The notes beneath the pieces are model-generated. The model saw only the letters and a list, made by a program, of their open reading frames with translations, did not search any database and was not told where the DNA came from. The position numbers and the translations under genes are program-made. This document shows, piece by piece, positions 31,817-64,000 of a stretch of DNA of 64,000 bases. This DNA comes from Antedon mediterranea (Eukaryota; Echinodermata; Crinoidea; Comatulida; Antedonidae), in contig NC_092672.1 in the NCBI RefSeq assembly GCF_964355755.1, forward strand, positions 3,410,001-3,474,000, given 5' to 3'. The first letter of the stretch is position 1, and every line of letters starts with the position of its first letter.

Positions 31817-34800
31817 ATGGACAGGGCGGGAAGAAACGACGATGACGGCCGGGAGAATGCTGCCAGGGATAGGCCTGCTCCAGAAAGCAATGCATCATCA
31901 CAAACAACATCTGCAAACGGTAAGTAAGAGGCCTACATTCATGATTGATGTCCTCTTCAAATATCTTGATAGTGAAAACATTTCTTCTGGTTTCAATAGT
32001 ATATTGATATGTAGTTCATTGATAGTAAACCAGTAATGTAAACTTACGTTTGCAAGACCAATCGGCGTCATATAACGCATAGCAACTGAAGAAGTCAAGC
32101 TGACAGCAATACGAAACTGTCTTGCAAACGTAAGTTTACATTACTGGTTTACTATCAATGAACTACATATCAATATATCTTGATATTATATCATGTTACC
32201 GTCTGACTGTATATAATGTATGCATATATTGTATACTATTGTTCTTCGATATTTGAATAAATGAACTGAATTCAATTGAATTTATTTCAAAAGTCGTACT
32301 ATTTATCATCTAGTGTTTCACCCAGATGGAATATATGGAACGCATATCAAATAATTTTTGTTTTATCTGATCTTCATTCGACTACTAGTTCAATTTAATT
32401 CAATTCACATTTATTTACTCATCGTTTATAAATATAATTTCATAGCATAAATGATGGCAAGGATCCTGCATAGAGAAGTTTACACTTCTCTTTTCACAGG
32501 ACCCTTTTACATAAAAAAATAAACACAACATAAAATAGATATAAAATAATTTTAAAAAGCATTTCCTATTTACATTTTAGAGTTGTTCATCATCAAAAAG
32601 CGATAGTGTTTTTCTAACATGATTATTTGTACATTTATTTTTCTTAAAAGAAGATATTCAGTTTATTACTTCCAGTACATGTGAATTCTTTCTTTATATA
32701 TATTTATATATAGTAAAAATGCTGTATTGTTTTATTATGTACAACGATTTCTTGTTCATTCTGGACGATTTGATTGATGTTTTTATTAGTTTCTTTGCTG
32801 TTATGAATATTAGTATTTGTTTTCTGAGGTGCCTTGATGTAAAATATTAAGTTTTAAAAGAAAGCTAAATGCAGGCCTATTCATCCATCATTCTAAAATA
32901 AAGATGTTTTCATATTTATTTTGGTTGGTCAATCGGTCAGTTACCATGTATAAAATCACATATTTTTCTTGGATTTTGTTTCTTTTTGTCAGTGGTTTAA
33001 AAAAAATGTAGTCAGGAATTTGTTTTTGTAAAAAAAAATCATAATCTTGAAAATAATTTTTCAAAAAGAAAGATGACCTGAAAATCTGGAGTCACTCAAC
33101 TGAAATGACCTAGATCTGGTGAATATAGGAAATACAGTGTTGTTACTCGTAATACATGTTATTGCAGATAGCAAAAACTAAGTAGCACTTAGGCATTATG
33201 TGACAGAAAGTTCATATTGCTTTGGAAAATTAGCTAGTGTTAACAATGCTGGGAACGAATTAATGTGAACAATCTGACATTATTTACAAGGAATCATTCA
33301 TAGGGCTACTATTACAAGTGACGGATCCAGAAGGACCTAAAATGGTTAAATAAGTACTGAACTTAATATATAATGTCTTGTAATCGATCTACACACACTA
33401 GTTTGACAAAAAAGGTGTGATGTGCCCAAATATGGTAGTGATATGCTCAAAAATGGTATAGTGATATGACATCATCATGTCCATATATGAGCACATAACA
33501 TTTTTTTGACACACCATTTGATAGTGTAGACAGAGCTTTAGGAGGGGTTGTGACTTCCCCCAGTATCCGCTTAGGAACCACCTGGCTACTACAGCAACCA
33601 TGAATCTTCTGTAACAATCGAATTATTCTTATTATTACAAAAAAATATTATATTAATGACGCTATTTTATACACCGAAGGTCTTTGCCTACAATGTTTTT
33701 TGTCCAATAATACAAAACGACAAGACATAGGCCTACGCTTGATGCTAAATTCAGGGGATTACACCACGCACAGCGTATAATTTAAAAAAAGTTTCGTAAT
33801 TTTTAACTATGCATAATGTGGGAGCAGTGGGAGGTTAGGTGTGATGTCAGAATGGTATTAGGCCTACTACTGGATGTGAAGTAGCGGTAGTCTGCGTGGT
33901 CAAGTAACCGCCTACTTTTGGCGGACGTTTATGATTGTTCTAAATACAGTTACGCCTACGCATTGAAGCTACAGAGGCCTATATTCAGCGGTATTCCTTG
34001 GTAAATGAGAAAATTTAACATTCCGAAGAAAACAGTATAGAAAATCAATTTTGCCGTTTGGCCACCACTCCCCCTCACTCCCACTCTATTGCCATCCGCC
34101 TATATTCTCAGGTCTGCAATTCTATTGTTACGTCACTCGTTTGACAGATCAGCTACAATTGACAGTAGGAAGGAAATTCATAAGCCAAAAAGGAAGAGCT
34201 TTTTTCCCATAGAGTAGGCACAGTAGATAATACGGTAGCGTGTTAATACAAAATAGAAACCTATGTATTATTCCAGTAACATACACAAGGTCTGGGGGTA
34301 ATGCGTCTCCTGTGGGTTTAAATGCGTCGCCATGTCCATGATGTCGACAACTAGCGACGGGATGGTATCGAAGAGAACACTAGTTTCAAGCTCTGTCTAC
34401 ACTATCAAACTAGTTTGACAAAAGTGTGATACTCAAATATGGTAGTGATATGCTTAGATATGGTAGTGATATGACATCATCAGGTCCATATGCGCACATC
34501 ACATTTTTTGTCACATAAAAGTTTGATAGTGTAGACAGAGCTTAACGCGTTGATATCATGGGTTGGTATCAGGTGACATCTAGTCAATCATGAAGACCCA
34601 ATTTAACAGAACACAACGTAACATTTTTGTAACGATATTAATTGAGTTTTTAATACATCGTTTATAAAACAAGATAAAATGCTTTTTCTTCCTCCGGACT
34701 TCAGATGTTTCTCAAATTTTACTGGTTTCAGTCTAAAGCCTATATGAAGATAATGGCACAGTTATTCGGTTTTTATTCCACAGATTATAATACAGCTCAA

Positions 34801-37800
34801 TTTATTTTGCCAAATGTCTGCCATGATACACGATAAAAGTGTAATGGAGGAGGCGTGTTAAATAGATTACAGTAAGCCCAATGGTGTATTTATCAATCAA
34901 TAATTATAAAAGATTATTCAATAATAAAAACACTTGTTCAATTACGTTATACGCAAATTAATACGAAACAAACTGTGTTGTTCCACTCTTGACCGTTTGT
35001 GAGTTCCAACCTAAAAATAGATCTATGCACTTCCTCCCTAGATCAAACTCACAAGGTCGACATTTGGACAGGAGAGCTGTTGTTAGTACGTGTGAATTTT
35101 CACATGTATACACAAGTTGTAATGAGCACTCGCATAAATTCGAGAGCGCAACACATCTCTGGACCTAGTCAAACTTTCTCTGTCTGATAATTGTGTTAAA
35201 TCTGGTCTCACGTGTCGTACAGATTCTAAACTAGTCCTCGAACATCACCCGCGTGGTGGTAATTCCAACCATTCGACGTATGGTGATAGTTTAATGTTAA
35301 TAATTTCAAGATAATTAGGAAAGAATATTGTTTCCGACAAAAATTAAGTTTCTCTTTCACAGTCCCTTAATTAAACCATGACCATTCGGCTGTTTTGAAA
35401 CGAGAGGGATCTAAAACAACCTCGACTCGAAAATGTATCAAAAGAGTGTTTTGACCAAGGTAATGGATCATAGAGATATTATGGAGGAACCCAGGAAGTG
35501 TGCCTTAAAAAAACAGAAAGAGAAATGTAAACTAAAACCAGGGAATAGTTAGCAACTCACTGATTAAAATCAAAATTACGAAATGCACAAAAAAAAAATC
35601 CAGTTTAATATTAATAAAGAATGATAATGTAATAATAGAAAAAAACTCTTGAATCGTAACAAACGAGTCTTTAATTTGAATCTTTAAGCGCCATTTACCA
35701 ACTTCTGTCCAACTAGGCCTAATGAGGTTAACTGGCGATATGTTTGGAACGAATTATGATGATTATTATGATATTAATACTTTTTCTTATACCTTTAGTA
35801 ACAACAAATTATGATGATTATTATGATATTAATACTCCGAATAATAACAATTATAGCATTATTAACACTACTACATATATTAGTAAAGTCCTTTATTTGT
35901 GGGTGTAACAAACCTCAAATACTGGAACGAAACTATATTACCCACATTTCAGTGACACAAACGTCAACAAATAAGGACATCGGAAAAACATAACAATAAA
36001 ATATGTAACACTAGACAGACAATAATCCTAATGTTGTGTACTAATTTCATCGATGACGACAAAAAAAAATTAACCCGCGCATAGGACGAAGTGACTTATA
36101 GTGATTACCTTAGACATACTTTGACACGCGGATTTACAATGTGTTCCTGTTGCGGTATTCTTGTGCGTGCATTTTAACCGGAATTGTAACTAATAACCCG
36201 GAATATATTTTGTTTATACCTTTTATAATAAGAGATTGAATTAAACAAGATTGAAAGTCATTTTTACCACAATGCTAAGGAGTTGCAAATTGAATATCTA
36301 ATTTGCTGATGTGACCATATCGAACAGGAGATTGTCTGATTACAAACGGACATAAACCTACCTGCCAATAATGGTGACGTAACGCAGAGGACTGAGGCCC
36401 TGGTTTAGGGACGCTAAGTGGCCCTCCGGGGAGGCCTTGGGGCCTTTTAGACATATTTTACGCCTTATTTCCCATTCGGGTCCTGCCCAAGCATCCTCCC
36501 ACCCATATAAGCCCCGAGGCCCCTGGATTTAGCCAGTGTGCGCTCTGGATTTAGCCAGTGTGCCCTCATGGCTGTTGCACCACTGGTGGAACTCTTTTCT
36601 GTCATCTTTGACATCGGGTCTCACATCTCAATTTTTTTCATAAGCGCTTCAAGTTGGATCTCAATTAGTACTTCATGGTACAAAGTGCTATAGTGTTTTT
36701 TATTTATTTTAGTAAACGGTTCTGTGAAAGTTACGCAACTTTAAAAAAAAAAGTGTTGTATTTGTTTCATTAAATAAAACGTAATGTTTTCAGGCGAATT
36801 ATTGATTGAAAATGGATGAAATAACAAAGGGTGGTCAAAAATGTTAGGCCTACACCAACTACATTCTGAATAGCTAAGCTATATATAAGACACCACTGTA
36901 GTGGGGTATAGTTAGGGATATTATGGCTCAAAATCTTGCAAAACAACCACATTTTGTGTATGGGCGCAAAAAAAGTTGACCCTTCGGCCGGTTTGAATTA
37001 TGTAAATTAGGTGATCCCGTGTGGTCAACACACGAAATTTGGTGCTATTGCAAGAATTTGAACCAAACATTCTTATTTGAACCCTAACAGCCCCCACTGC
37101 CGAATATTTTCTAGATCTACCTTTTGGGTTTCTGTAAAACGTGATTGCATAACGTGAGAACCAATACGTCATCATCCAAGATGTGTAAGGAAGATGATAC
37201 AACAACGAGCAGTGTCTCAAAGAAGACAATGTCTACGTCATAATAAGTTTGAAGGAATTCACAGATGTCTGAAATGAGTAATATAATTCCACACGTACTA
37301 CGCATTAATGATTCAAAAGAATCATTATTATGACAGACACGGTCGCCGCTGAATTTATTCATTTAATGACACACCCTAATTATATGAAAAATGTATCATA
37401 AACTGTAACATAATCGCCTCAATTTGTAAAAATTTAGAAATGTAACAATTACTTACATAAAACTATATTTAGAAAAGTAATTGATCTACAATAATATAGA
37501 GGGCGCTACAGATATGTGCCTCGCAAGAGCCATAATATTGAGTTCCGACATTGAATGGATTAGAAGCCATTTTTGTGTCCAACTATTCCTATGTAGAGTA
37601 TGGCTCTGGTGCCTCATTCACAATGACGTATTACTAATACATTCAGTATATTATAATTAGTTAACAAATGATAATCTTCTATAAGTATCGTAAGCTTTAA
37701 GTGACAAAAAAATGTGATGTGCCCATATATGGACAAGATGACATCATATCACTACCATATTTGGGAATATCACTACCATATTTGGGTACATCACACTTTT

Positions 37801-40800
37801 TTTTGTCAAACTAGTTTGATAGTGTAGACAGAGCTTAATAAATTTTAGATATTAATTAAGAAAAGTTGATCTATTTCAACGGAAATTATACATTGCGATA
37901 TGGGTTTTGAACATTAAATCATCATGATATCGAGGAAATCCATGTCAAAAATGCAGACAAAGTCAACTGAGACTTGGCTATTATTGTGCTGTATGTAATA
38001 TACTGGATGTTTACTTGATAGCTTGATCCTTTATTTAGGGAAGAGTCCTCAATCCTCTTTTAAAAGATGTCAAACAGGGTGCAGAGACAACTGCAGACAT
38101 ACTATTCGTATTCGTCATAATTTAATAACCTCACATAATATTAAAGGAATTTATTAAAAATAATATTGTGTCAAAACTTTCTTGACATTTGGAAATAACG
38201 TACAGCTGCCTAACAGCCTTCAATGGTGTCTTATGTGGTTCGTCATTAATATTGTATTATTTATACTAAATAAAATATACTATCCGCCCCCCCCCCCCCG
38301 CACCCAATATCCCCCACCACCCCAAACAACCCAACCATTCCTTCCCATGTTACAGGCCGCCAATGATAAACTCCTCGTAGAACAATAAATTGCACAGATT
38401 TCTCAACGAAAGAATGGTTTAAATAGTAAATAAAAGAAAATTACTTAATAAGTTTACGTTTGCCTACAGCACGTACTTATTCTTAAATTTGTAATTAGGC
38501 CGATGTCAAACTAAACCCATTCGGAAGTTTAAATAAAATGTACAAGAATGTCAATATCCTTAGGACAAATAAGAAGAGGTTAACACGTGTCTTAAGTGAT
38601 ATCTCTACAGTAATTCTAACGTGCACGCTGCAATAGAAAATCATTGTTATACAGAATAATGAATGTTTTCGAAACCACAGTAGGTATCAACATTAGCGAA
38701 TCGTTGACTAATCTATAATAATCACATTATCTAGATTAGTTAGCCGTGTTATCTCTCTAGCGATCAACTCAATACGAATGTAATTCTATTGCTTCATTGT
38801 CGCGTTACGGTACCCACGTATCTCAGAGGCCTAATGACGAATCAGTAGTATAGGCGTTAACTTAAAGAAAACAGCGTATATCCATTTAACCAGGGAAAAG
38901 GAAAGCAAAAAAATTATTCTTCTCTGTTAAAAAAAATTACATTGTATAGGGTACAGTCAACAATTTCTGGGAAGGCGTTTCCCGTTAGAATATAAGCCAG
39001 ACTTTTTAAACACCACAAAAACGTGGAAAGGTTTCTTTCGACAGAACACCGGTACCTGACGTGTTATTTTACCATTGTTCTTCCTGTTGACACAAGTGAC
39101 AAATTTATTTCAATGACAACTTTTGAAACGTCATTTTAAAGTTTTGTCATTGTCTTATAAGGAGTGGCTTTGTCTTGTTCGTTGGAAATAATGTTCTTCA
39201 ATGGAAATAATTTAAGGAATATTTCAAATGTGTAAGTTTATTTTAACTATTCTAGTAAAGTTGTTGAAATTGCTGTTTAAAGAGAATTTTTTCTTCGTTT
39301 AAACTAATTCTATATTTATCGAAAAAAAAGTACGAAATTGTTTATTGTATCGTATATGTTTTAAAATGGTGTATTCGTTCTATTGTTGTTTTGTCGGCAA
39401 TTTAAGGAATATTTCAAGCAAGTTTATTTTAACTATTCTATTATTAATTAAATTGTTGTAGAGAGTTTTTTCTTCCTCTAAACTAATTCTATTTATCGAA
39501 TAAAAAGGACAACATTGTTATTTTTGGTTTATGGAATATTTAAAATGTGTATTTAGTTGAAATTGCTGTTTTAAGATATTTTTGTCTTTAAACTAATTCT
39601 ATCTATCGGATGAAAAGGACGAAATGTGTTATGGATTATTAAAATAGTAGGGGCCTATATTTGTTTTGTTACTGTTCGTCAGCCCTTACATTTCAGATTA
39701 GCCACACTAAAAAGTAATTGTATAGAGAGTTAGCGCTTTCTACATTTAAGATAATCTTGCGGTATCTATCGAATAAAAAAGACGAACTTGCTATATTCTA
39801 TTTGGTTTAGATTATATATTCGTTCTATTTGTCGGCCTTAAATAATTCTCGGCCACACTAAAAATTAATTGTTTACCTGAATAAGAGGTATAAGATTTTT
39901 GTTTTTTTATCGTTTTGTCGAAGTTTCTAATTTCTATATATTATATTTCTACCTATGCTGCCTTATACAAGCTTCGCTTTTTTGGAATGTTGCCCCTCTT
40001 ATTTTAATCAAATTTACTGTTAATTTTTATATTCTATGAAAGAAAAGAAGAAAAATAAATGTTACTTTGATTGATTGATTGATTGATTGATTGACCTATA
40101 AACCGTTACGTTTTCGCGTGTTTTTTTTTTTTACCAATATCGATTACCAGTATAAATAGTTGTCATTATTTTAAAACGATTATAAATGCAAAATCATTCG
40201 TAATACTACTTTTAATTAACTATGTACGTGTTTTAGCTTATCTAATACCTCCGAAAAACACACACATAGACCCACATAGCCTGTACACACCGCCGGTTAA
40301 GAAAAGGCCGGGAAAACTAAGCAGAAAGGGTAGTCGAGAGGCTAGGAGTACCGAGACAGAGTCTGGATACCTACAGCCTTTCAACCTACAGTCACCTTCA
40401 GAAGAAGTGGCAGACAATGATTATTACAAAACCATAGGTATCACTCTCTTAAAAATACTGACAGTTCCATATTAATTATCTTAAAGCTCAATAGTTATTT
40501 GAATTCGTGATTGCTTTCTAATCTGTCAGCCTTCTAAGGCTTAGTTCCCACTTTGGCGCAACTTAGAAGAAGGGCGTAAGTGCGCGGCAAGTAATTTGAC
40601 CAATCACGACACGATTGACATCCAAACTGTCGCTTGTGATTGGTCTATTCGTCGTTGCGTTGCGCCCAAGATTGGGAATCAAGCTTTACAGAGCATGTGC
40701 TTTAACGAATATGCCTGATAATGTTTGCTGTGTGTTGTGCGCAAAATAAACATTGCATTTAATGCACGTTGCATCTGACCTGAAAATGCATGACCTAAGG

Positions 40801-43800
40801 CAAAAAGAATGTGCCGTTTAAAAAATAGAACAGAAATTAAAGATGCATGTACTCCATTTCGTTTGATTTCAATTGTATTTTCCTTAAATTTCAGTCTAAT
40901 TTTTGTAATTATTGGTCAGCTAGACAATAAGACATTACAATAAAACTTTCCATAAATTAAGTCCAGGGTGTCTTAAAAAAACTATCGATGGAAAAGGGGA
41001 AACATAATGTAACAATCTGCCAGTATGGACATTTAAACTAAACCTAAACGCGAACTTAGGTTCAACATTTTAGTTTAAATATTAAAGTTAATTTAACTAC
41101 AAAATACAGGCCCATTGAACGTTGAAATACAAATTGACTATACTGTATGTTTAATAATAACTACAAACGTTTATATCATACTATACTAGTATACAACAAT
41201 AACAATTTAAGGCTTGGAGAAATTAGTTTAAGTTCAATTCTTCTTTCTTTTGTTTCTTGTTAAAGAAGTATATATTGAGATTTTACCGTTTTGAGCTATT
41301 TAATAATTTGTCAGAAAGAATTGACCGGCATAGTTTTTGAGACAAACTAAATCTAAGCTGCAAACACAAGATTGCTAGTTCATTCCAATGAATACTTTAA
41401 AATATAACACAATAGCACAATATCCTTTCTTAAATCGAAGCGAAAATAATAATGTGATGGATACCTTAGAATAATAATAATTATTAGAATTAATAAAGGT
41501 CAGTAATTCTAAAAATAAAGGCGTTTATCAGGACGGGTTTCTTGAGGGGATTTCATGGAGACTGTTGACGTAAATGATATAAAGATCAACTACTGTACAA
41601 TGGTACAGAATGGATTTCCTATTGGGAATTTGTAGATAAGATTAAGCTACAGTAGGTCGCTTGCAATAAGTAGGCTTATAATAATGCCACTATTCTAAGT
41701 TAAAGACCTTCATTGTCCCCAAAAACATGAAATAGATGAATAAAATCAAACTTTAAATTGGTCATTTTGTAGTTATTCAATTCATAAATTCAATAAATAG
41801 GCCTATAGAGATATGATAAGATAAGATAAAATAAGCAGTTAAATTGAACCAGAACTCCGCTGTCTGACAGAAAAGTCAATCGGAGGTTGGTTTTGTCTTT
41901 CTTTCATTTTCAGGTTTTTTTTCCAAATAAATTACTTTTTCGAAACAATTTTTGGAGTTTAAATTGGCATATTTAACAAAAAAATTGGTTGAAAAAATCT
42001 TTTTTTCCCATGATTGAGACAATTTATCTTATCTATTTATATGAAGAAGTACAACTCGAATAACCATTGCATTAGACTCTTATTAATATCCTCTTTAACA
42101 AGTTTTCCTTACTAAATCTAATTGCTTTAGTTTTTTTGAATTGAATCTTCTTCTTGTTTCTATCTATAAACAATTTGAAAAAGAATATAGAAAAAACAGA
42201 AGAAAAAGTTTTAATACAGAAATTAAATTAAAAACAAAGATTTTTTATGTGTAGTCTAGGAACCAATTATTGAATCCTTTCTTATAATCAGATTCATAGA
42301 CTTGCACTATTTGTCCTTATAGAATTACCACATACTCACCAAGCAACTGAAAAACGATACGTCTCGCAAACACCAACTCCATCTAGAGCTATTCCAAAAC
42401 CAACGTACTACACACCTCAACCGAGAAGAAAACCTCCCATACTTTCTCCAAGACCAGATAAAAAGATCTTACTCAAGAAATCGCCATCTACATCTTCCTC
42501 TTTAAAAAGTTCCATCAGTCGTTCAACGGGACAGTCTGATGGTAGCATAAAAGAAAGAGAACAGTTTAACCCTTTTCCAGAAGAACTGCCAACCGAGAGC
42601 GAGTATGATTGCGACAGTTACTCCAGACCACCGTCTCCAACGTCAATGACATCATCATCGGTGTCTGAGAACTCACCACTTCGCATCCCTTCAGTTGAAA
42701 AACGACCATCAACTCCAAAATCAGATTCTAAGGCAATGGCTGCCAAAAGTAAGTAAGACTTTTAACGGATTTTATTTATTATCACCATCTTTAACGAGGT
42801 AGACTTATCCAGTCCCCGTGAAGGAATCGATCATTACGATGAAACATACACATACAAACATATACAATATATATAAAATATTCAGAACAAGTTAAAATTC
42901 TCGTCCAAATTGTCTATTTTCTTCTTTCAAAGACTCCTTTTTGCTAACGAAGAGGCAAGTTTCAATACAACCATGGAAAAATGGACCTTATTCTTAACTT
43001 AAAAGAGGACTAAAAATTAGTCGTAGAAAACCTTGAATTTAATCCAGAACGGTATAATTATTCTGGCCTAAAATATTATATCTATCAACGTGAATTTTAT
43101 TGATTATCAGAACTACTGCACAAATCTAATTCATGAGTAAATCGTTTCGTCATATGATATGGTGTTGAAATTGAATTTGATTTGAATTTATTAAGAAAAT
43201 CATAAACAAGGTCATATACTTGGCTGCAGTCGCGTGCACACATTTTAGTTAGTGAGCTGTAGGGTCAGTAGGGTTTGCACGCAACTAAAATACATAAACA
43301 GTTATACATAAACTACTGACATCACCAATAAATACATTTATATAAGATTTTCCAGGATAGCCCATGTCTATATCAATGGCACGAAAGATCTTGAAAATAT
43401 AGTAAAAGTTGACATAGGCCTATTGCTAACAACCTAATTATTGTTATATGATTGCAGTGATCATCACTATAATTTCAACAGAAGATACAATTTACTTTTA
43501 CCTTCAATTTGAAAACTATATCAAATAATAAACCATCATTTATCTGTGATTCTTTTGAATACAATCATATCCTCCCACCGGAAACAGATAATTGGCTATC
43601 CAAGCGTATTTCGATAACCAACCAATACAATGACAATTCTCTTCTTACGTGTTTCTGTATTCACGAAATTAAACTTAGATCAAATTGTATTTTGTAATAA
43701 TATCGATGATAAATTCCTTTCAGAAAGGAAGAAACTTACAACCACCAAGCGACACGCGGAAATAAAAATACTTTAATACTTCTTTTTTTTTTCAACAACG

Positions 43801-46800
43801 ACAGTGAGGCGACGCATGGGCGACGGGGGTAAAAAATAAACATCGATTAAAATACATTAACTTGTTCCAAAATAAAAGTTACAGCCCAAAACGTATATTA
43901 TATAGAATCATGTAGCAAAATTATACATTTTGTCGGGCAAGGATAATGAAGTTATGTTTTTTGCAAACTTTACCATTTTCTTTGAACGCCAATACCTTAC
44001 CATTTTTAATAAATATTGTATATGATACCTTTTTTTTTGTTTTTGCCTAAAATAATTGTAAATCATAGTGTTGAATGATTACTACTTTGTAATATTTATC
44101 ATGTTTATTTCACAGGATTAAACCCGGTAGAAAGACGCTACAGTCAACGTCTGACTCCAACCTCTTCTCCATCTCCATCTGAACTTTCTCAAAGATACTT
44201 CACACCACAGCCACGGCGGAAGGCGAATTGGATACCCAACTCCTCGTCGTCAAAACCAGATTCTCCTATCACACCTTCAAAACCGAAGGATTGGAGTCCA
44301 CGTTCCAAATCGCCAGTTGCTCGCCAGCTGTTTACATCCTCACCAAATGCAACTCCACAGCCTCCAGCCGCTTCTAGCATTCCTAAGAAAAACAACTTTT
44401 TTAAAGAACGTTCAAGAGCAGTATATGATATAAGTGATGGCGCCGAGACGCTAGAGCTAAAAGTAGCGCAGCAACAAAGTAAATCTGAAATGGTAGGAGG
44501 TAACATATCTGACATCAGTTCCATTGGATATCCAAACGGCAAATCTTCGGATATATCAAGAACACCTTCCATATGTTACCAATCAGTAAGTACAGTTAAA
44601 TCAAACTTTATGTTATGTGCCCATATATGGACATGATGATATCATATCACTACCATATTTGAGCACATCACAATTTTTTTATCACAAGTTTGATAGTGTA
44701 GACAGAGCTCTATTCTACTTCACGGTTACGTTGACAATTAAACTTATGCCATGTTCTGATATTTGTTAAAATATATTATATTCGGATATAAAAAATATAC
44801 AAAATAGGCCTACAGCCAACAGTCTAAACGTAATGCAATGTTTGATATCGGTAAGTACTACTACATATTCTACTGTCTGTCAAAGTGTTACGTTGACAAT
44901 GTCAACTCTTTTAATGTGTTCTAAAATATACATAATTCTTATTATGACTAATTTCATCTTACTGTATAATAATTAATTATACAAAAGAAACATTCACAAT
45001 GTGTAACTTATCAGCTGTAAGCTACACTGTGCAAGAAAATGAATTGTTACAGTTGTGTATTTACTTGAATGATATTTTTGTTTCCTTAGGATAAAGACTC
45101 TCAGTCTGACTCGTATATGTACGAGAACCTAGCCGATAGACGGAGAAGGCGTCGTCGAAGTGCTGGTAGCATGTCTCTAAGGAGCTTAGCAGCTAGTCGA
45201 GAGGTCCTCAATGATATTTTCCAAAGCGGACGAAAAGAAAACAAAAAGATGAAAGGCGTTCTTGGGTTGTGCGTAGCAATATTTCTAGGTGCCATACTGT
45301 TCATCGGTTTGCACTACGGACTCTATTACACAGAAGTTGTGTCGGTTATCATCACGGCAGCGTCGACATTTTTCATAGCTTTAGGACTAGCATTCAGTGG
45401 TACGAACGATTTTCTTTTTTTCAATCAACAATATATTTATCCATGTAAATTTATCCCGAAAAGCATATTTTGAAATGACTTACGCAACTACAATTAAGAA
45501 GTGTAAAGAAAACATAATCCCCTTACAGCCGGAATTTAAACAATAATATTATACTGTACTGTCTCCCATTTTCTGTTTAATTTAATTTGAATTATTGTTT
45601 GTTTTAAGTAAAAAAGAAAAAACAATGAAAACACGTAGTACAAATAGTCTACATTTCACAATGCATAAGCATAAGCTAGGTAATAAAGTAACGAGTTATG
45701 CAATATGAGGCAACGTATATTGTTTACCTATATTTGATTTTCGATTATTGCACATTTAATTTTGGTAAAACATAATAAACACGTACTTATTTATATTGCT
45801 TCCAGTATATTAACTATAAATAACATTCTTGTTTATCTTGTCATTCTAGTCAGATCCAGGTGTATTGCGGCATTAATGGCTCCAACTTTATGCACTTCTA
45901 GAGGGCGTGCTGCAGTGTTAGCCTTAACTCTTGGTCTATTATTGAACGGACCAATCAAAAACATCGTCAATAACGGGAATCAACTATCAGAAGCTATGAC
46001 GTGTAACGCCGACGTAAGCAATTAAGTTATTATTCTCAATACCTGATATTCTATTATATGCTACTATTAAAGTAGTAGTATCATATAAATCGGATTATTA
46101 TAATCAATAAATCAAATAACCAAACATAACAAAGTAAAGCTCGCACCGCGCGCTTTTTAAATTTAGAATTCACAATGCGTTAAAATACATCACACTAAAA
46201 GTATATTCCATTATCTGTACAGGTTTTAAATCAGCATAGTGAACAAATACAAGAAGCTGCCTTGAAATCATTTGATGATTACGTCGAGAACGTAGAAGCC
46301 AGTCTAGAGACACTTGAATCTATAGCCACGGACATTCAAGAGTCTATGGAACCTCTTACTGAAGGAATTCTACGAGTTAATGACCAAATAGAGGTACTAT
46401 TTTGTAATATTGTAGCGCGCCCTCTATATCGTCACACAAACTCGGTTCTTTTGAGCGTAATTAGAAGTAAACCTTACCATTCATAAAATATGGTAATCGT
46501 CACAATTTGCATTTGTAATAAAATACTTTTGTATTACCAATAAGATGCGACGAATTATTACATTACAATTTAATGTATTTCAATGCAGAGCCATATTATA
46601 TGGCTGTTTTTTTGTTGTGCGCCCTCTATATCGTCACACAAAATTGGTTTTCTTCGCAAAAAAGAAAAACAAAATAACGTTTTCCTCCTATTATTATATT
46701 GATTCAACAATTAAAATATATATTTTAATAAGATAATTGTTCTTTTTTCAGAACGCTGCCAATGCTTTGACAACATCTGCAGAAACGTGTATAAATATGT

Positions 46801-49290: not shown

Positions 49291-49642
49291 AATTTTCTGA
49301 CGGAGATCAACTTTACAGCATATTGACATACAATATAATATTTAAAGGGTTCTACATTGGTGGTCGATACTGATCAATACAGAAATCAATCAATACAAAT
49401 CGATAATATATGTACAGTACTATTTCTATGCCTTAATCAGCCGGTCTATGTAAATAAATTATTTTAATATTGTACATGATGGCTGTTTTAAATATAAAAT
49501 ACTATAAAATATACTGTATATAATGAAGCTTATATATTTTGTACTAAAATATGTACTATAATATGATGAATAAATTAAACAACTGGATATGTTGATACTG
49601 GGCTATGTTATGTAGTTTGATGAATAGTGTTTAAAACAAACA

Positions 49643-50482: not shown

Positions 50483-50580
50483 TTGGTTCCCACTAAGACG
50501 CAAAACATTGATGTAACGCAAGTAATTTGACCATTCAAGTGACGGCTAATGCGTAACTTCGTTTCTGATTGGTCAAATTA
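50483..50580. mobile_element. MITE family M2, left part only (shared by B and C flanks)
   Basis: The left end TTGGTTCCCACTAAGACGC and internal TTCTGATTGGTCAAATTACC are present, but the right end is missing. The same truncated copy lies at about 60940-61020, so it inserted and decayed before the B/C duplication. Confidence 0.65.
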
Positions 50581-50904
50581 CCTTATCTTATACAAATTGT
50601 CTTTGCCGTGTCCAGTCACCTGAAATCACCAAAATACAGTAAGTACTTGGAAGTGGTGTAAAGGTTACGGGTTTCTTCGAATGAATTGCAAGACGATCTT
50701 TGACGTACACAATATACAATTGATATAAAAATGGAATTTACTTTCTGACATTTACACATATCATCAAATGCATATACCCGTTTAACAAACGAATATACTT
50801 TAGCACATAATTACATTGACACTTAAATAGTTGATTTAAGTTCGTTGCAATCTCAATCAAAGGACTGTAACACTAATAGAATTAAACATATATAAATAAT
50901 AATT

Positions 50905-51385
50905 AAATCAAAGAGCTGCATAGGCAGGATATAGAAAAAAATCAAGATCAAATAAGTTAAAACTGCCTCAATATAGATTTATTTTAACGACATGTTTCGG
51001 GCATAGCCCATCATCAGGTGAAAAGAATTGTAACAAAGGATAACATATATAAGTCACAAAATTACATAATAAAACAAATCAACCAATCAAAGATGTTAAC
51101 AAACAAAAGGCATAGTTATAAAGGCACGCCTCCAAAAGCTATGGTGTACAAAGCAGGAATGGTTGCTTATAAAGCAGGAAATTTAAAACAAAGACAAAAG
51201 CTTCAAGTGTAAATAATTGTTAATATGTGGATGTCTCTGGCAAAATTAATGTTTAAAGGATCTAAATTGTACATTTATGCCGGTAGGGGCAAGAGTGCCA
51301 AGCTTTACAATTATTCTTTCTTCTATAATTAGAGATGTCTCAGAACCATTACATACTTTAACACCAGAAATAGTAATAATAATAA
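50905..51385 (-). mobile_element. insertion unique to B flank, with hammerhead-like motif (Penelope-like?)
   Basis: This 480-bp stretch is absent from the C flank. The minus strand reads CACCTGATGATGGGCTATGC then CCGAAACATGTCG at 51020-50988. CTGATGA, a GGGC/GCCC stem and GAAAC are the order seen in hammerhead ribozyme cores known from Penelope-like elements. No coding part was recognised. Element class is inference. Confidence 0.45.
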
Positions 51386-52127: not shown

Positions 52128-55100
52128 ATGACGTCACCAGTCTCTGCTGGAAACTCACCCATCAGCATTTCTTCTGTTCTAGTTAAAGAACCAGCAACAG
52201 ATACTCAAACACCGACTAAAGAGCCCGACAAAAGTAAGGAAACAAATCTTGTACAAAATATCTATACGATATTCGAGTTGGTTTCAATATTTTAAACACT
52301 TTTTTGAAAATTCAAATTGCGTTTGAAATTTAAATACACCTGGAATCATTAGCTGTTACATTACAACATTAACACTAATAAGACAATGTGGAAAATCCTC
52401 CAACGGTTTATTATGATTTTATACCCAAATTGTAGACGTTCGCAATTTTCTTCTATTGCCGTATCTCTATCTATTTAGCTGTTAAAAACTAATTAAACTC
52501 TGTATTTTGTTGTTAAAATTTAATTTAAATTTTAATTGTATTTAAAATCACAGGGTTGAACCAGGTAGAAAGACGGTATAGTCAGCGTTTGACGCCAACC
52601 TCTTCTCCATCCGGACATTCTCAAAGGTACTACTCACCACAGTTTCCTCGACGAAAACCAAACTGGAAACCAAACTCTCCTGTGACGCCTACAAATAAGT
52701 TCCTCACCAAAGATGGAACGAACAGTCCACGGGCAAAAGCAGGTTCACGTCAACTATTTAGGCCTAAACCATCACCGACCCCAACGTCACAGCTTCCTAA
52801 ATTTAATAAGAACAATTTCTTTAAGGAACGTTCACAGGCAGTGTACGATGACAGCGATGGTGACCAAACGCTCGAGTTGTCCAAGATGTCAAAAGGAAGT
52901 GTATCTGACGTTAGTTCAATTGGCTTCCCATATGACAAATGTTCAAGAACACAATCAAATTGTTACGAATCGGTAATTTTGTTTGTTTTTTAATTAAAGA
53001 TGTATTGTCCCCCAAACATGAAAGATGTATATTAATAAAATTAGACTTTAAATAGGTCATGTTGCAGTTTTAATAAAGTTATTCACTTCTGTAAAAAAAA
53101 AAATTATTTCACTTATAACAAGACAAACGAAACGGTTAATTTTAACCAAAAACCAGACAATTTAAATATTTTTGTTTTAAATTACATTTTTTTTCAGGTC
53201 AATCAATTTGTTTTCGATTCAGTTTTGGTCAAAGTAAATAACTATTACGTGACATTAAAATGGCATATTCACCAAAAACTGTAACAAAAAAATTGTTTAG
53301 CGGACAATATATCTTTAAGATTAGCTTAATTATGAACTTTATTTTGTTAGATTTTTGTGGAATTTCATATCAAGAGCGATCTTCAATTGGAGGTAAATAA
53401 ATATGTAACATAGCAAATGTTTTGACATTTTTCATCGTCATTTTTCCTAGGAAAACGGGTCCGAGTCTGAATCGTACATACGTGAGAACGAAGCAGAAAG
53501 AAGGCGGCGTCGTCGTCGACTTAGCGCTGGCAGCGTGTCGTTGATGAGCCTAGCAGCTAGTCGAGAAGTTCTCAACGATATTTTCAAAAGCGAAAGAAAT
53601 GAGAACAAATGGATGAAAGGTGTGATTGGGTTGTGCGTAGCAATATTTCTAGGTGCCATACTGTTCATCGGCTTGTACTACGGACTTTATTACATGGAAG
53701 TTGTGTCGGTCATCATCACAGCAGCGTCAACATTTTTCATAGTTCTAGGACTAGCATTCAGTGGTAAGCATATCAAGATAATTAATAGTAATAACATGTG
53801 TGTGTAGTGCTGTTTGCTGAGCAAATTACTATTAAATGAATATAAAATAAATGAAACTTTAAACATGTATACAGATTCTATCGACGAATAATTGACCTGT
53901 TTGGCCCACAATACAAATTCAACCTAGATTTTATCCGCTGATTGTACTCCATTATGTCCGATTGTCAACATGTATTTCATTTTTACAGAATGCACTAACA
54001 TTTATTATTTTATTTCTTGACAATACACAATTGTCATCAGTTATTTTCATTCGTTCTTTTACACAGGTTTATTAATTATTATTATTATAATTTATTATCA
54101 TTTATTAATAAAACATTGTTGTTTGGTATTGCAGTTAGATCAAGATGTATTGCGGCGTTAATGGTTCCAACTTTATGCACTTCCAGAGGGCGTGCTGCTG
54201 TTCTTGCTTTGACTCTTGGGCTAATATTGAACGGACCAATCAAAAACCTCATAAATAATGCAAATCAGCTGACTGAAGCCATGACGTGTAACTCTAAAGT
54301 AAGCAATTTTCACGTTATATACTTTAAATTAGGACTAATACAAAAATCTGGACAAAAACCAATTGATGATCCTATCAAATGTTATATACCAGTAGTATAA
54401 TTATGATGGGCAACAATAAAAAGAATTTAAAAAGTCAAATTAAAATCAAATAAAATTGAAAAAAAGCTACATGAAATTACTTTCCAAAAATTTTTCTTCT
54501 TTACATTTAAACCGAAAAAAATTATTTGTCTTTCAAAATTTAAACACGCTTCATGCTTCTCTATCACATGACATTTACGGATCCGTATGCACTTTACCTT
54601 TACTTTCGATTGGTTGCCCGCACTAAATTCACGCATGCAGGTAGTTAGATCAAGTATTTACAGTACAATTAAAATAATTAATATGATTCATATATTTGTT
54701 ATATTTTCGTTTGTAATTTCATCGTAAAAAGAAAATAAAAGAAGTTGCCATTGTCATATAGGTTTTAAATATGCATAGTGAACAAATACAAGAAGCTGCG
54801 TTAAAATCATTTGATGATTACGTCGAGAACGTAGAAGCCAGTCTAGAGACACTTGAATCTATAGCCACGAAAATTCAAGAGGATATAAAACCTCTCACTA
54901 AAAGAATTACAGATGTTAATGGCAAAATACAGGTACTTTGTGTACATTTTTTCATAAAAATACTAGAACATGTATCTTAGTAAAGCTGTCTTGGCAGAAT
55001 TTGACAAATATTGTAAACATTTTCTTAAAGTTGCCTGGGAAAAAAGGAGCTAATTTGCATTGTTGTTATTAAGAAAAGCCACTGCATTGTTTTTGTATTA

Positions 55101-57580
55101 CTACTGTATTTAATGTCTATGTATGTATCGCTGAGTGTACATAAATATACATATACCTGTATATTTCTTCTACTTTTTTTTTTTTAATTTGTTTTATGTT
55201 TATTTGTATGTAGTTTAAGTTGACTGCACCACTAATGAGTGTGTTGCCACTGATCAAAAAGTGTTTATCAATCATGACGTGAAATTGTATTGCGCCCTCT
55301 ATATCGTCACACAAATTTGGTTTCCTCGGCGCAGCAGAATTAAAATCCATCAACAAATATATAATGTGGTCCTTAATTATTAGATTATTACAAACATCTG
55401 CGCATGCTTAACTCTTACCGCGCAATCATATCGTCCGATATATTTTACTCTTTGGTGGTCGTAATGAAAGCGTCTTAAATAAAATAACTTTATTTTTCTA
55501 GAAGACAGCAAATGCGTTGAAGACATCTGCTAATCAGTGTAAAATAACGATGAACGGCGCATACAAAGACTGTAAAAACGGACTACAAAAAGCGTACGAG
55601 GATTGCAAAAAACAAGTTGGAATAAGTAAGTCGACGTTTTGAATGGCCATAAACCCCGGGATGTCTCCGGAGATCACTCTGGAGTTTTGGTGTGAAAGGG
55701 GTATTAGGGTCTTTCATCCGTCACTTGTTCCGGCGGCACGGTTCCGGTCCGGCGGCGAAAAATCAAAGCGAAACATTCACATTCGATCTGAATTTCTGGC
55801 ACCGGACCGGAACCGTGCTGGAATAGGTGTGAAAGACTCTTGAAAAGCCCATTTACACTAGGGCAATAACGATCGACGATAAAAGATAAAGATGCATTTA
55901 AAAAAAAATAATTTAAAAAAGTTTTCATCCTAGAACTATAGAATTATCATCTATGCTGCCTTTCATGAAAATAATATTTCCACACGTCCAATCAAATGAC
56001 GTCATGATTAGTAAGAGCAATAATATCGTTACAATACAACGATTTTATTGTTTTTTTATTGACCATGATATCATTTTATTGGATTTTTAATATCAAATAT
56101 GGCATAAATGATTATCCTATAGTTCTAGAACGAAAACTGTTATTTTCTTTTGTTTTATCCAAGAAAAATGTATGTTTATCTATTTATCGTCGATGGTTAT
56201 CCCCCTAGTGTAATTGGGCATTAAACGTGAGTTTTACATCTACAACGATTCCACCACCACTTACGTTGCCTTTTTTCCAATACTATTTTAGATATTGTAT
56301 TTATATGTGAGCCTCTGGGTATTACTGATGCTCTCTGCGAAACAGTCAAAGTCGGTACCGGGATTTGTCGGTTACCAGAGTTAGGAGATGACATATTTGC
56401 TAAACTCAATACTGACGAGTTAGAGGAGGCAGTTGAAGAGTTAGTTGACATGTTTGAGGTCAACGTGGACTTTGTACCAACGTGGCAGGACGCGCTCGTC
56501 AATTTTACAGGCGATCCGAAGGCTATTGCCAAGAAAATAAGCGCCAAATTAGAAGACACGTTTGGAAAATTTGATATTATCATCTTGTATTTTGACCGTC
56601 TTGTTGCGTTTTCGGTTGTTTATTTACTCTACCGATCATATAGGTATCATTCAAATTATGTCACAAAGGACCAGTTTGATAATTTTTACATTACAAAAGA
56701 GTTCCGGAAAGTCGATAAAAATAGACGTGAAAACGGTAAGGAATTTGTTCTACCGCTTAAAAAATATGAGAAGAAAACTATGATTGATGTGACCACGTTA
56801 TCACTATCTCATCCCGAGAAAGGTTCCTTCAAAATCGGCTTAGCATCAGTTATTCTAAAAGCACTTATAACAGCTATCATCATACTAGTTGACTATGGAT
56901 TCTATTGGCTACTAACAGTAATAGAAAGTCAATATAAGGAAATCAATTACAGCGCATCAGGTGGAGGCGATCTGAGCTACAATATTGAGGGTAATGGTTT
57001 AATGGCGGACTTTGCACGCAACCTGTACGGGGAAGGCCCACAAGATTCAAACACGTACGAAATACAATCACAGGCACAAAAATGTATTCCAAAACCATTC
57101 AAACCAGAGGACAATACTGCCATTATTATAGGTGTTTTATACGGTGTAATCATATTGACTGTTCTTTTCCAAGCGTACGCTTTGCGTTTACGTCGCTGGA
57201 TCGCGTCATATTATTACCCAGAGCGTGAACAAGCTCGAACGATGTATCTTTACAACAAAACGCTGAGAAAACGTAAAACGCTTTGGTCAATATTAAAACA
57301 AACCATAAAGGAGAATCGTCGAGAACAGGTTGAGGCAGAGAGAATAAGTTTTAGGGCGTGGTTAGCTACGCACAACAAATTATGTGGTATTATATTCGCG
57401 AATAAAATGCATGTGTGCCTCGGCTGTGCAACCGGAGAAAATGAATCGTTTTATATTTGTGAAACTCCGCGGTGTAGTGGCGCATACTGTGGTGAGTGTT
57501 TGGAGCAAGTTGGGAGTCTTTGCACATTGTGTGGCGATCCCATTGATATTGAAAGCGGTGTTAAAAATCCCAAAATATAA
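52128..57580 (+). CDS. DCST gene B: DC-STAMP-domain membrane protein, complete
   Basis: Same family and presumed role as gene A. Exons 52128-52233, 52554-52972, 53451-53763, 54135-54298, 54762-54932, 55502-55625 and 56292-57580; 2586 bases, 861 residues. Exons 3-7 correspond one to one to the last five exons of A, with identical phases and equal or nearly equal lengths. An in-frame TAA lies ten codons upstream of the ATG in the same exon, which supports this start. The N-terminal 180 residues are Ser/Pro-rich with conserved patches VERRYSQRLTPTSSPS and FFKERSQAVYDDSDGD. Then come ENEAERRRRRRR, the first membrane pair, the extracellular part, and the DC-STAMP region with NYSASGGGDLSYNIEGNGLM. 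The C-terminal eight cysteines (CLGC, ICETPRC, YCGEC, CTLC) are intact. The protein is much closer to C than to A. No break is seen. Confidence 0.93.
52994..53318. mobile_element. M6 inverted-repeat element in DCST B intron 2
   Basis: The ends TTAAAGATGTATTGTCCCC and CGGACAATATATCTTTAA are inverted repeats bounded by TTAA. The same element at the same intron position occurs in gene C (62550-62869), so it predates the B/C duplication. A partly reversed relative lies at 48924. Confidence 0.8.
55690..55843. mobile_element. GC-rich inverted-repeat element in DCST B intron 6
   Basis: GCACGGTTCCGGTCCGG and CCGGACCGGAACCGTGC are perfect inverted arms, with outer pairing of AGGGTCTTTCA with TGAAAGACTCT. 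The GC content stands out from the AT-rich intron, which suggests a recent insertion. Confidence 0.75.
55850..56221. mobile_element. inverted-repeat element with 33-bp ends in DCST B intron 6
   Basis: The ends GCCCATTTACACTAGGGCAA and CCCCTAGTGTAATTGGGC, each followed inward by TCGACGA or its complement, form terminal inverted repeats. The body is AT-rich and has TTCTAGAACGAAAA paired with a CATCCTAGAACTATAG-like stretch. It directly follows the GC-rich element and ends 70 bases before exon 7. Confidence 0.75.
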
Positions 57581-58250: not shown

Positions 58251-58569
58251 AAATGAAAATATTTATATATTTAAAAAGATAATACACAAACATAAACACA
58301 TTTTTTTTTATTTATCAAAATGATTATGTTTTGAAATGAAATAAAGGTGCGTGAACCTCACAAAAGAGAAAAAAAATGTCCTTAAAAGACCTATTGCCAT
58401 AACTGTTAGGCTTTGGCAAGATGATAGTAACTATGAATGAAGTTATTCCATAATAAAACCTCAACCATTAAAACAGAATCATTCTGTATGATCAGATAAA
58501 ATATTACTCACTTCTTAAACTTCTACCGATTTACATAAATCAAAATACCATACATAGAATAAGGAATGG

Positions 58570-59497
58570 CCTAATGTCCGCTGAACTTGAACTTATATCT
58601 GTTGAAATTATGCCCAACAAATGTAAACCCCTTGTAATAATATTATGGTATCGACCACCAAATTCAACTACTTGTCTTTTTGACCACCGAAAAAATAGTT
58701 TACGTAAAATTGAATTAGAAAAGAAAGAGTTCATGTTGATGGGGGATCTAAATTGCGACCTCCTATCTATCGAACCACATTGTTGTTACACCAAAAGATT
58801 AAATGAAATTACTACGAACGTTCAACTTGAGCCCGTCATACATGAACCTACTCGTATAACCAAAGATAGTTCAACGCTTATTGATGTAATGTTCTTTACC
58901 AACGTTTCAAAGGTTTCACAATCTGGCGTTATACATGCTGGTCTCAGTGACCACTCCATGATATACGCTATATTGGGAAAACTAATAAACCATAACACGG
59001 TAAATAAACAGAAACACAAGTACAAATTTTAAAAGATTTAATGAAAATGACTTTATCTCTGATCTCCAACATATAAATTGGAATGAAATTATAAATAGTG
59101 GAAATGTAGACGAAAGTGCTCAACTACTTGACAATCACCTTATAAATGTAATTGATAAACATGCTTCTATGAAAAAACATAGAATAAGAAGGAAAACGGC
59201 TTGGTAAAGATATTATTAAAATGATGCGAGAACGAGATAAATTCCAAAAAATATGTAATAATTCTAATGATGAAACACTTTGGAAAAAATACCGTAAATA
59301 TCGAAATGCATGCAACAAATTAATTTTAAAAAGTAAGTCAGATTTTATTAAAGACAAAATAAACGAAAATAAAAACGATGTTAAAAAAAACATGGAATGT
59401 AATAAGACATATCATACCATCAAATAAGAAAAGTCAACATATTCAAAGTATTTGTAATGATAATATAAAAAATACGGATGATAAAGAAATCGCAAAA
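58570..59497 (+). mobile_element. non-LTR retrotransposon fragment with endonuclease domain, broken
   Basis: The frame 58574-59032 contains VIILWYRPPNSTTCLF, FMLMGDLNCDLLS and GLSDHSMIYAI, which match the later motifs of the apurinic-type endonuclease of CR1/L2/Jockey-like elements (catalytic D-x-N in GDLNCD and the terminal S-D-H). The frame then stops; shifted frames continue (e.g. 59221-59427) with a lysine-rich linker typical of the region before the reverse transcriptase. The RT itself is missing and the 5' part of the endonuclease is truncated. The fragment ends exactly where the C copy of the tandem duplication begins. Confidence 0.8.
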
Positions 59498-61640
59498 ATT
59501 GGATGGAAAACAAATTATTTACGTGAAAAAAACTGAAATTGAAAGTAAAAAATAATCAAATTATTGGAATTAAATGGGTGTAAAAAAGTAAAAACATTAT
59601 TTTTTAGTTTTTTTTCTACGAAAGTGATTGCCTCAAAGTCTTTTATTTCATATATCTTCATTTTTCATTTTTTAGTATCTTTAATAAGAAAAAAGTGGTT
59701 TGATAATCTGAAAATGAAAGAAAAATTGTTATGTATATTATTTAAAAAATTTTGTCTCTGAATTTTCTGACGGAGATTAACTTGACAGCAAATTGACATA
59801 CAGTATAATATTTAAAGAGTTCTACATTGGTGATCGATACTGATCGATACAGAAATCAATCAATACAAACTGATAATACCTGTATATGTACAGTACTATT
59901 TCTATGCCTTAATCAGCCGGTCTATGTAAATAAATTATACTTTATGTAATGAAGCTTATATATTTTGTACTATAATATGTACTATAATATGATGAATAAA
60001 TTAAACAACAGGATATGTTGATTCTGGGCTATGTATGTAGTATGATCATAATAAATAGTGTTAAAAAACAAACAATAATATTTATCCATTTTCTAGAATT
60101 TTGTTTAGTAATTTAACATCGGAAATTATGTATGCATTTTTCACTCCATTGTATACGTTCAACACGCCACAAAAATAGTAAAATCATTGCGGGGAATTTA
60201 TACGATTGTTGAAAGACCGGTTTCCTGAAATTGACAGCTCCGTATTTACCTTTATTGTTCCTGTTGACCCACCAAGTGTCATTCAATGACATTTCAAACT
60301 TCAAACTAGGACTACATACATACCATCATACGCAAGAGAGACGTTGTCATGTTCGTTGATAATGTAGATCTGCTTTCAACGTGTAAGTTTATTTTTTATA
60401 AATTTAACTTAATTTAAGTGTAACAGTTGTAAAATTGGATATTATCTCAATTAAATAGAATTGAAGTATATTATTATATACAAATAATTATTATTATGTA
60501 GTAGGTTTTTGAACAACCATTGTGAACAGAATGGCTGAAATAGTAATCGCTGTCGTTTTATTCATCTTTCCAAATATGATCTATTTTTTTAAAACGTTGT
60601 AACAGTATTTTACAGGGGTATGGCGTTATTTGCAATCTGCATTTTGAATAGTTTTAACAATATTTTAACATAGGCCTATAAATAACATTGCCTTTTGCAA
60701 TTTTATGTATTTTTCTTTGTTGTTTCATTGCCTTAATTGTTCCAAGCGAAATGGATTTCCATTTTAAAGCGGATCAATATTTCTTAAATCTTTAATCTAC
60801 CAAAATCCGTAGATCTGCATAGTGTCTACACGTTACAGAATAATAGGTTAATTTTACTACTCCACGCCCCTCCACCACCATTGACAGGTTTTTAAAGTTT
60901 TATTGATAGGATAGGACTGTTATAGTTGACTGTTTCTTCTAAAGATTGGTTCCCGCTAGGACGCAAACCATTGATGTGACGGCTAATGCGTAACTTCGTT
61001 TATGATTGGTCAAAGTACCTTATCTTATACAAATTATCTTTGCCGTGTCCAGTCACCTGAAATCACCAAAATAAGTACTTGGAAGTGGCGTAAAGGTTAC
61101 GGGTTTCTTCGAATAAATTGCAAGGCGATCTTTGACGTACACAATATACAATTGATATAAAAATAGAATTTACTTCCTGACTTTTTACACGTATCAAATG
61201 CATATACGCGTTTAACAAAGAATATACTTTAGCACATTATTACATTGACATATAGTTGATTTAAGTTCGTTGCAATCTCAATCACTAATAAGAATTAAAC
61301 ATAAATAAATAATATTAGATCAATTGAGATAATGTATTTTTGTACCGATTCTTCGATCATTAAAGAATTAAAAATGAATTAATAATAATAGTTAGTTTAT
61401 TATACCGTCGCGATTGCTTACGTCGTAACTTACGTTTTCCTTTTATTAGTTTGCATCAATTATTTTAATGTTTGACTAAATTGTTGGGGAAACCCCAATG
61501 CTTGTTAGTCCGTTATTACTATCCTACCAACGGCTATAATATTATACTATGCGTATATTACCTAATAATATCTTACAAGAACACGAATTATTTTTTATAT
61601 TAGTTGACTTAAGTGAATGACAAAAACATCAAGAGAAGCT
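59498..61640 (+). repeat. upstream part of the B/C tandem duplication, C copy
   Basis: This aligns with 49014-52095, starting at AAAAATTGGATGGAAAACAA. It lacks the 480-bp insertion and the two adjacent M2 elements present upstream of gene B. No protein-coding exon was found. Confidence 0.85.
60074..60382 (+). promoter_or_regulatory. candidate promoter and untranslated first exon of DCST gene C
   Basis: Near-identical to the block upstream of gene B. It ends CAACGT|GTAAGT; one A fewer than B in the last ten bases. An ATG at 60349 opens the same short upstream frame. Confidence 0.5.
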
Positions 61641-61675
61641 GTTAAGACAAGTAAAAGACAAACAGTTCACCAACA

Positions 61676-64000
61676 ATGACGTCACCAGTCTCTGCTGGAA
61701 ACTCACCAATCAGCATTCCTTCAGTTCTAGTTAAAGAACCAGCAGCAGACCCTCAAACACCGACTAAAGAGCCCGAAAAAAGTAAGGCATATTTTACAAA
61801 ATATCTATACGATATTCGAGTTGGTTTCAATATTTTCAACACTTTTTTTAAAATTCAAATTACGTTTGAAATTTAAATACATCTGGAATTATTAGCTGTT
61901 ACAATATTACACTAATAAGACAATGTGGAAAATCCTTCAACGGTTTATTATGATTGTATACCCAAATTGTAGACGTTCGCAATTTTCTTCTATTAATTGC
62001 CGTATCTCTCTATCTATTTAGCTGTTAAAAACTAATTAAACTCTGTATTTTGTTGTTAAAATTAAATTTTTATTTTAATTGCATTTAAAAACACAGGGTT
62101 GAACCAGGTAGAAAGACGGTATAGTCAGCGTTTGACGCCAACCTCTTCTCCATCTGAACATTCTCAAAGGTACTACTCACCACAGTTTCCTCGACGAAAA
62201 CCACACTGGAAACCAAACTCTCCTGTGACGCCTACAAATAAGTTCCTCACCAAAGATGGAACGAACAGTCCACGGGCAAAAGCAGGTTCACGTCAACTAT
62301 TTATGCCTACACCATCTCCCACCCCAACGTCACAGCCTCCTAAATTTAATAAGAACAACAATTTCTTTAAGGAACGTTCACAGGCAGTGTACGATGACAG
62401 CGATGGTGACCAAACGCTCGAGTTGTCCAAGATGTCAAAAGGAAGTGTATCTGACGTTAGTTCAATTGGCTTCCCAGATGACAAATGTTCAAGAACACAA
62501 TCAAATTGTTACGAATCGGTAATTTTGATACGTTTTGGTTTTTTTTTTATTAAAGATGTATTGTCCCCCAAAAACATGAAAAATGTATATTAATAAAATA
62601 AGACTTTAAATAGGCCATTTTGCAGTTTTAATAAAGTTATTCATCTCTGTAAAAAAAATATTTCACTTATAACAAGACAAACGAAACCGTTAATTTAAAC
62701 CAAAAACCATTGTCTGACAGACAATTTAATATTGCTTGCTTTAAATTACATTTTTTTCAGGTAAATCAATTTGTTTTCGACCAGTTTTTGGTCAAAGTGG
62801 ATAACTATTACGTGACATTAAAATGGCATATTCAACAAAAAATGTTTTTAGGGGACAATATATCTTTAAGATCATAGCTTAATTATGAACTTTACTTTGT
62901 CAGATTTTTTGGAGAGCTTTAATTGGAGGTAAATAAATATGTAACATAGCAATTGTTTTAATAATTAAACATTTTTCATCGTCATTTTTCCTAGGACAAT
63001 GGGTCCGAGTCTGAATCGTACATACGTGAGAACGAATCAGAAAGAAGGCGTCGTCGTCGACTTAGCGCAGGCAGCGTGTCGTTGATGAGCCTAGCAGCTA
63101 GTCGAGAAGTGCTCAACGATATTTTCAAAAGTGAAAGAAATGAGAACAAATGGATGAAAGGTGTGATTGGGTTGTGCGTAGCAATATTTCTAGGTGCCAT
63201 ACTGTTCATCGGCTTGCACTACGGACTTTATTACACGGAAGTTGTGTCGGTTATCATCACGGCAGCGTCGACATTTTTCATAGTTCTAGGACTAGCATTC
63301 AGTGGTAAGCATATCAAGATAATGATTATAATAGTAATAACATATATATGCGTGTGCAGTGCTGAGCCGTTAATATGATCATTAATTTAATATAATTACT
63401 ATTAATAATTAAAACTATTATTAAATGAAAATGAAATAAATGAAACTTTAAACACGTATAGGCCTACATATTCTATCGACGAATAATTGATCTGTTTGGC
63501 CCACAATACAACTTCAACCTGGATTTTATTTGCTGATTGTACTCCATCATATGTCCGATTGTCAACATAGTATTTCATTTTTAAAGAATATTTAACTAAA
63601 AATGCACTAACTTTTATTATTTTATTTCTCGACAATACACTATTGGCATTAGTTGTTTTCATTCGTTCTTTTACACGGGTTTATTAAGTAAAATACTAAT
63701 AATACATTGTAATTTGTTTTGTATTGCAGTTAGATCAAGATGTATTGCGGCGTTAATGGTTCCAACTTTATGCACTTCCAGAGGGCGTGCTGCTGTTCTT
63801 GCTTTGACTCTTGGGCTATTATTGAACGGACCAATCAAAAACCTCGTAAATAATGCAAATCAGCTGACAGAAGCCATGACGTGTAACGCTGAGGTAAGCA
63901 ATTTTCACGTTATATACTTTTTATTAGGACTAATACAAAATTTGGACGAAAACCAATTGATGATCCTATCAAATAAGGTTATATACCAGTAGTATAATTA
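61676..64000 (+). CDS. DCST gene C: DC-STAMP-domain membrane protein, 5' part (cut by window end)
   Basis: Four exons are present: 61676-61781, 62097-62518, 62995-63304 and 63730-63893, coding 334 residues with the same phases as gene B. The rest lies beyond the window. The sequence is nearly that of B, with a few substitutions, one extra Asn codon in the N-rich stretch of exon 2 and one Arg codon fewer in the basic run of exon 3. Visible parts are the Ser/Pro-rich N-terminal region (VERRYSQRLTPTSSPSEHSQ), the basic run, the first membrane pair (VIGLCVAIFLGAILFIGLHY) and the segment LALTLGLLLNGPIKNLVNN. The start has the same upstream in-frame TAA as B. All splice sites seen are GT-AG, so nothing suggests a pseudogene. 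Confidence 0.9.
62550..62869. mobile_element. M6 inverted-repeat element in DCST C intron 2
   Basis: Ends TTAAAGATGTATTGTCCCC and GGGGACAATATATCTTTAA. It sits at the same intron position as the element in gene B and is inherited with the duplication. Confidence 0.8.

Follow-up and report, generated by a model that had tools for sequence, protein, structure and literature searches.

A 64,000-nucleotide stretch of the Antedon mediterranea genome (the window; C3:3410001-3474000) carries three intact DCST-type genes, A, B, and C, in tandem on the forward strand, as recognized by HMM matches and full gene models. The array is very probably a mosaic of copies: B and C closely match each other except in approximately 110 codons, where C instead resembles A and B stands apart. 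An earlier reading of the window made without database searches (the sequence-only reading) had described three same-strand genes of this family; PF07782 matches and complete spliced models confirm that observation, and its interpretation is in part supported and extended here. The mosaic nature of the copies, which it had overlooked, is newly found.

Gene models of the array

Models were built from splice sites and frame and then cross-checked between copies; those of A, B, and C have GT-AG introns, are free of stops, and match in phase from copy to copy. Gene A (31817-48622, + strand) comprises nine exons (31817-31919, 40237-40437, 42323-42748, 44116-44585, 45090-45399, 45850-46013, 46223-46393, 46752-46875, and 47337-48622) that encode 1084 aa in a stop-free spliced model with phases fitting at every junction and a PF07782 match at E 4.8e-53. 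The first two of these exons are placed by splice sites and phase only, without homology, and the start at 31817 given by the sequence-only reading makes an in-phase join with the next exon. Gene B (52128-57580, + strand) has seven exons encoding 861 aa, its ATG being preceded by an in-frame stop. Gene C (61676-66449, + strand) likewise has seven exons (860 aa), four in the window (61676-61781, 62097-62518, 62995-63304, and 63730-63893) and three past its end (64526-64696, 64943-65066, and 65164-66449, up to 3476449 of C3). The start methionine of B and C corresponds to Met210 of A, with stops immediately upstream in both.

All seven exons shared by the three genes have identical junction phases; gene A differs from B and C in having two more exons at its 5' end and an extended third exon. 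The matching exon plans reported previously therefore apply to the final six exons, as well as to exon 1 of B and C, but not to the 5' part of A. Exons 3 and 4 of A (42323-42748 and 44116-44585) contain similar stretches, RYVSQTPTPSR..YYTPQPRRKPP and RRYSQRLTPTSS..YFTPQPRRKAN, which may reflect an ancient exon duplication within the N-terminal tail; self-BLAST reported no such duplication.

Family membership

Membership of A–C in the DCST family, together with their tandem duplication, is almost certain. The DC_STAMP domain (PF07782) lies at 47720-48298 in A, 56675-57253 in B, and 65544-66122 in C (outside the window), all on the + strand, and scores 177-194 bits against a cut-off of 25 (E about 1e-52). 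SPE-42 homologues have, besides DC_STAMP, an ectodomain between TM3 and TM4 with six cysteines 9-13 apart and a C4C4 RING (PMC3053230). All three features are present in A–C, which bears out the earlier family assignment. The ectodomain, encoded across four exons, has six cysteines spaced 11,11,12,10,10 in A and B and 11,11,11,10,10 in C, and the C-terminal C4C4 RING has eight, spaced 3,11,5,5,3,8,3 in all three. The family topology is of six membrane passes with cytoplasmic N- and C-termini; an 875-aa model of A has hydropathy peaks at residues ~247, 274, 316, 543, 629-657, and 724, which would be compatible with six passes. No DCST1- or DCST2-specific model was matched in the Pfam scan, and a solved-structure search with the DC_STAMP exon returned only ferritin matches at chance level.

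Paralogues elsewhere in the genome

We searched the chromosome-scale assembly (354 Mb, 18 contigs) for PF07782. A fourth tandem copy to the right of C was sought in these contigs and none was found; the suggestion that more copies might follow there does not hold, as only the remainder of C lies to the right and the next family member, D, is 2.0 Mb from the array on the same contig (C3:5.47 Mb). D has the exon plan of B and C minus one N-terminal exon, and its ectodomain cysteines are spaced 11,11,14,9,10. Two further multi-exon genes, E (L012/L024) and F (L013), are dispersed on C2, their models being approximate joins of open reading frames. The RING cysteines are common to D, E, and F as well. 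Since A–C are closer to D in core identity (46-47%) than to E and F (27-29%), and E and F share 30% with each other and are about equally distant from A–D (27-29%), the genome holds three DCST groups: A–D, E, and F.

With six genes, in three groups about equally far from one another, the genome runs counter to the expectation of the sequence-only reading that DCST genes usually number one or two. It also exceeds what has been published, namely that invertebrates possess only DCST1/2 (PMC8989947) or that many animals have two homologues (PMC3053230).

Duplication history

The three adjacent intact copies uphold the proposal of a local tandem expansion. B and C have an overall dS of about 0.09, and the similarity noted earlier between their introns is real, introns 1-5 being about 70-91% identical by BLAST. 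The 5' flank of B (49012-50911) is also duplicated, as the 5' flank of C (59493-61323), at about 79-80% identity, and a PF14529 non-LTR retroelement endonuclease fragment (58472-59032, + strand) lies in the B–C spacer near the left boundary of the unit that holds C. By comparison, A differs from B and C by a dS of 0.6-1.3 in exons 1-4, and its introns 1-4 cannot be aligned with theirs. At least two duplications are thus supported as had been proposed, but the second was not very recent.

It is highly improbable that B and C represent alternative haplotypes of a single gene misjoined in the assembly, a possibility that the sequence-only reading had itself raised. Duplication of the flanks on either side together with the gene speaks for a misjoin, but the 5' flanks are only 79% identical and ectodomain dN between B and C reaches 0.32, which with the intron differences would be extreme for alleles. 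Moreover, a mobile element is found solely in intron 6 of B, and the assembly is chromosome-scale. The differences are too large for B and C to be alleles.

Mosaic structure of the copies

Two copies agree against the third at 459 coding sites, 331 of which group B with C and 97 A with C. The A+C grouping peaks in the ectodomain at 42 of 60 consecutive sites, a concentration reached in 0 of 10,000 permutations. By codon column, allegiance is B+C from the start to ~390, A+C to ~505-560, and B+C thereafter to the end. The greater distance of A, as first described, therefore applies to most of the gene; the exception is the stretch covering the 3' end of exon 5, exon 6, and the 5' part of exon 7 (exons numbered as in B and C, here and below), in which C groups with A. 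In A this C-like, B-unlike six-cysteine block spans approximately 46325-47480 (+ strand), that is, the 3' end of exon 46223-46393, exon 46752-46875, and the 5' part of exon 47337-48622. The matching block of B, at approximately 54864-56435 (+ strand), is the odd one out, is charge-neutral, and holds most of the B-specific amino-acid changes.

The introns follow a comparable pattern: introns 1-4 align for B and C only and intron 6 for A and C only, while intron 5 aligns mainly for B and C, A sharing just a short repeat-like stretch. Intron 6 of B contains a high-copy palindromic MITE-like element with an inverted repeat (55844-56222) that is missing in A and C; about 39 further copies were scored, and a first look gave about 1700 candidates. 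Between A and B, dS is 0.6-1.3 across exons 1-4 but only 0.1 in exon 5 and 0.26 in exon 7, which suggests an additional, earlier swap of exons 5 and 7 between A and the B/C line.

As the copies are mosaic, one duplication tree does not describe A–C. Repeated gene conversion between copies would be the simplest account of the tract patterns in exons and introns. The last exchange may have brought the A-line block into C; alternatively, the change occurred in the block of B itself. With D as outgroup, the 3' part of exon 5 goes with A/C at three of four informative residues, and exons 6 and 7 favor neither side.

Divergence of the B ectodomain

Replacements unique to B are concentrated in one 112-codon stretch, the six-cysteine module, which holds 41.5 of the 51.5 (0/10,000 permutations); this module is predicted to be extracellular and to face the egg. 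On the B branch dN/dS is 0.17 outside the block and 1.42 within it (N:S contrast, p=1.6e-4). An excess over 1 is not significant across the whole block (p=0.26); for the 3' end of exon 5 plus the 5' part of exon 7, the two parts with low dS, the ratio is 4.8 (p=0.03, with boundaries set post hoc from the same data). B retains all six ectodomain cysteines and has many acidic-to-basic changes, such that the net charge of the module is 0 in B versus -14 in A, -16 in C, and -7 in D. The modules of E and F, in approximate models of joined open reading frames, are strongly basic (+11 and +8), opposite to A and C.

These patterns suggest that selection on the B ectodomain was relaxed or, more probably, positive as it diverged; it was probably diversified by selection, the dN/dS signal being suggestive. 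Sexual selection, proposed previously as the driver, would be consistent with the placement of the B changes, which fits selection on an egg-facing surface. Some of what sets B apart is probably older sequence that recombination retained or introduced, and not new substitution, since exon 6 has an A–B dS of 1.1 (with a wide interval) and no relationship is seen between intron 6 of B and that of A and C. The same two observations would also fit import of the whole block, by conversion, from a divergent DCST copy since lost or not sampled, making selection for novelty unnecessary. We consider such an import less likely, as the adjoining exon parts have a dS of 0.08-0.19 but a dN of 0.18-0.36, a pattern not readily explained by old imported sequence, and the DC_STAMP genes of this genome include no obvious donor.

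Proposed function

Members of the DCST family are sperm proteins required for fertilization in worms, flies, fish, and mice, and DCST1/2 are among the very few fertilization factors common to worms through mammals. Mouse DCST1 and DCST2 bind each other and are mutually dependent, their loss blocking fusion; zebrafish Dcst1/2 require each other for stability, and their loss blocks egg binding (PMC8989947). SPE-42/SPE-49 of Caenorhabditis elegans and Sneaky of Drosophila share with A–C a multi-pass membrane core (predicted in A–C), a large ectodomain with six cysteines ~10-12 apart, DC_STAMP, and the C4C4 RING, and Sneaky function is disrupted when its second ectodomain cysteine is mutated, as cited in PMC3053230. 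For these proteins two homologues per genome are described and the literature examined shows no tandem array or conversion mosaic; A–C differ further in their long Ser/Pro-rich N-terminal tail. Vertebrate DCST1 and DCST2, sperm proteins that form a heteromer, have the architecture of A–C but are two genes, in contrast to six genes in three groups with 28-30% identity between groups here. Duplication is also shared with known gamete-recognition genes (Izumo, TFP, ZP, DCST), for which conversion and selection are discussed as drivers of diversification, although these mostly represent unrelated families and often within-gene repeats, as opposed to exchange between whole genes (PMC8830517). A limited literature search returned nothing specific on DCST in echinoderms or on DCST with gene conversion.

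We propose that a DCST/SPE-42-type membrane protein gene expanded in tandem, that the copies exchanged sequence, most simply by gene conversion, and that the ectodomain of B diverged and lost its negative charge while its membrane core and RING remained nearly the same as in C. All three genes are intact and constrained, and so probably make protein; by homology, A, B, and C would be sperm-membrane subunits of heteromeric complexes acting at the fertilization step, like mouse DCST1/DCST2. This chain, up to the sperm role, is our best explanation and appears likely though far from assured. Given their common core and RING, the three proteins could probably enter the same complexes, in which B would show a different outer face. 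A neutral module beside strongly acidic ones could alter the egg partner or the pairing within the complex, and B may have acquired another extracellular partner or come to play a complementary part, a step to which we assign lower odds than to the preceding chain.

It is also conceivable, at distinctly lower probability, that A–C are DCST relatives with a nongamete role such as somatic cell fusion, in which case the altered ectodomain would be unrelated to eggs. Two relatives, DCSTAMP and OCSTAMP, function in osteoclast fusion (PMC8989947), and E and F may already fill the DCST1/DCST2 roles, freeing A–D for another use. Against this, the studied genes with the architecture of A–C (DCST1/2, SPE-42/49, and Sneaky) act in sperm (PMC8989947, PMC8055269, PMC3053230). 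Returning to a sperm role, whether the DCST1/2 ectodomain contacts the egg is an open question in the field (PMC8989947), and a near-identical core combined with a divergent six-cysteine module amounts to a natural swap experiment that indicates residues to test. Conversion might keep the membrane machinery uniform while positive selection drives one egg-facing module to a new charge, which would make DCST proteins direct egg-recognition molecules and not only assembly factors; we hold this to be rather unlikely.

Other features of the window and genome

Two tRNA-Asp-like genes with the unusual anticodon ATC (2231-2302 and 2601-2672), 370 bases apart, may be pseudogenes or tRNA-derived repeats. 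An 81-base tandem repeat at 12647-13065 has five near-identical copies and is open in several frames. Upstream of the array, on the minus strand, open reading frames at 17431-19423, one with a TPR stretch (PF13424), resemble parts of an APPBP2-like gene. A COX1 search turned up no mitochondrial contig. Two sequence signals make an origin in an echinoderm or another ambulacrarian likely: the word TAGGCCTA, common in echinoderm DNA, occurs 26 times versus 0.66 expected, and the tektins of this genome are closest to entry 8snb, from sea urchin sperm, clearly above mammalian tektins.
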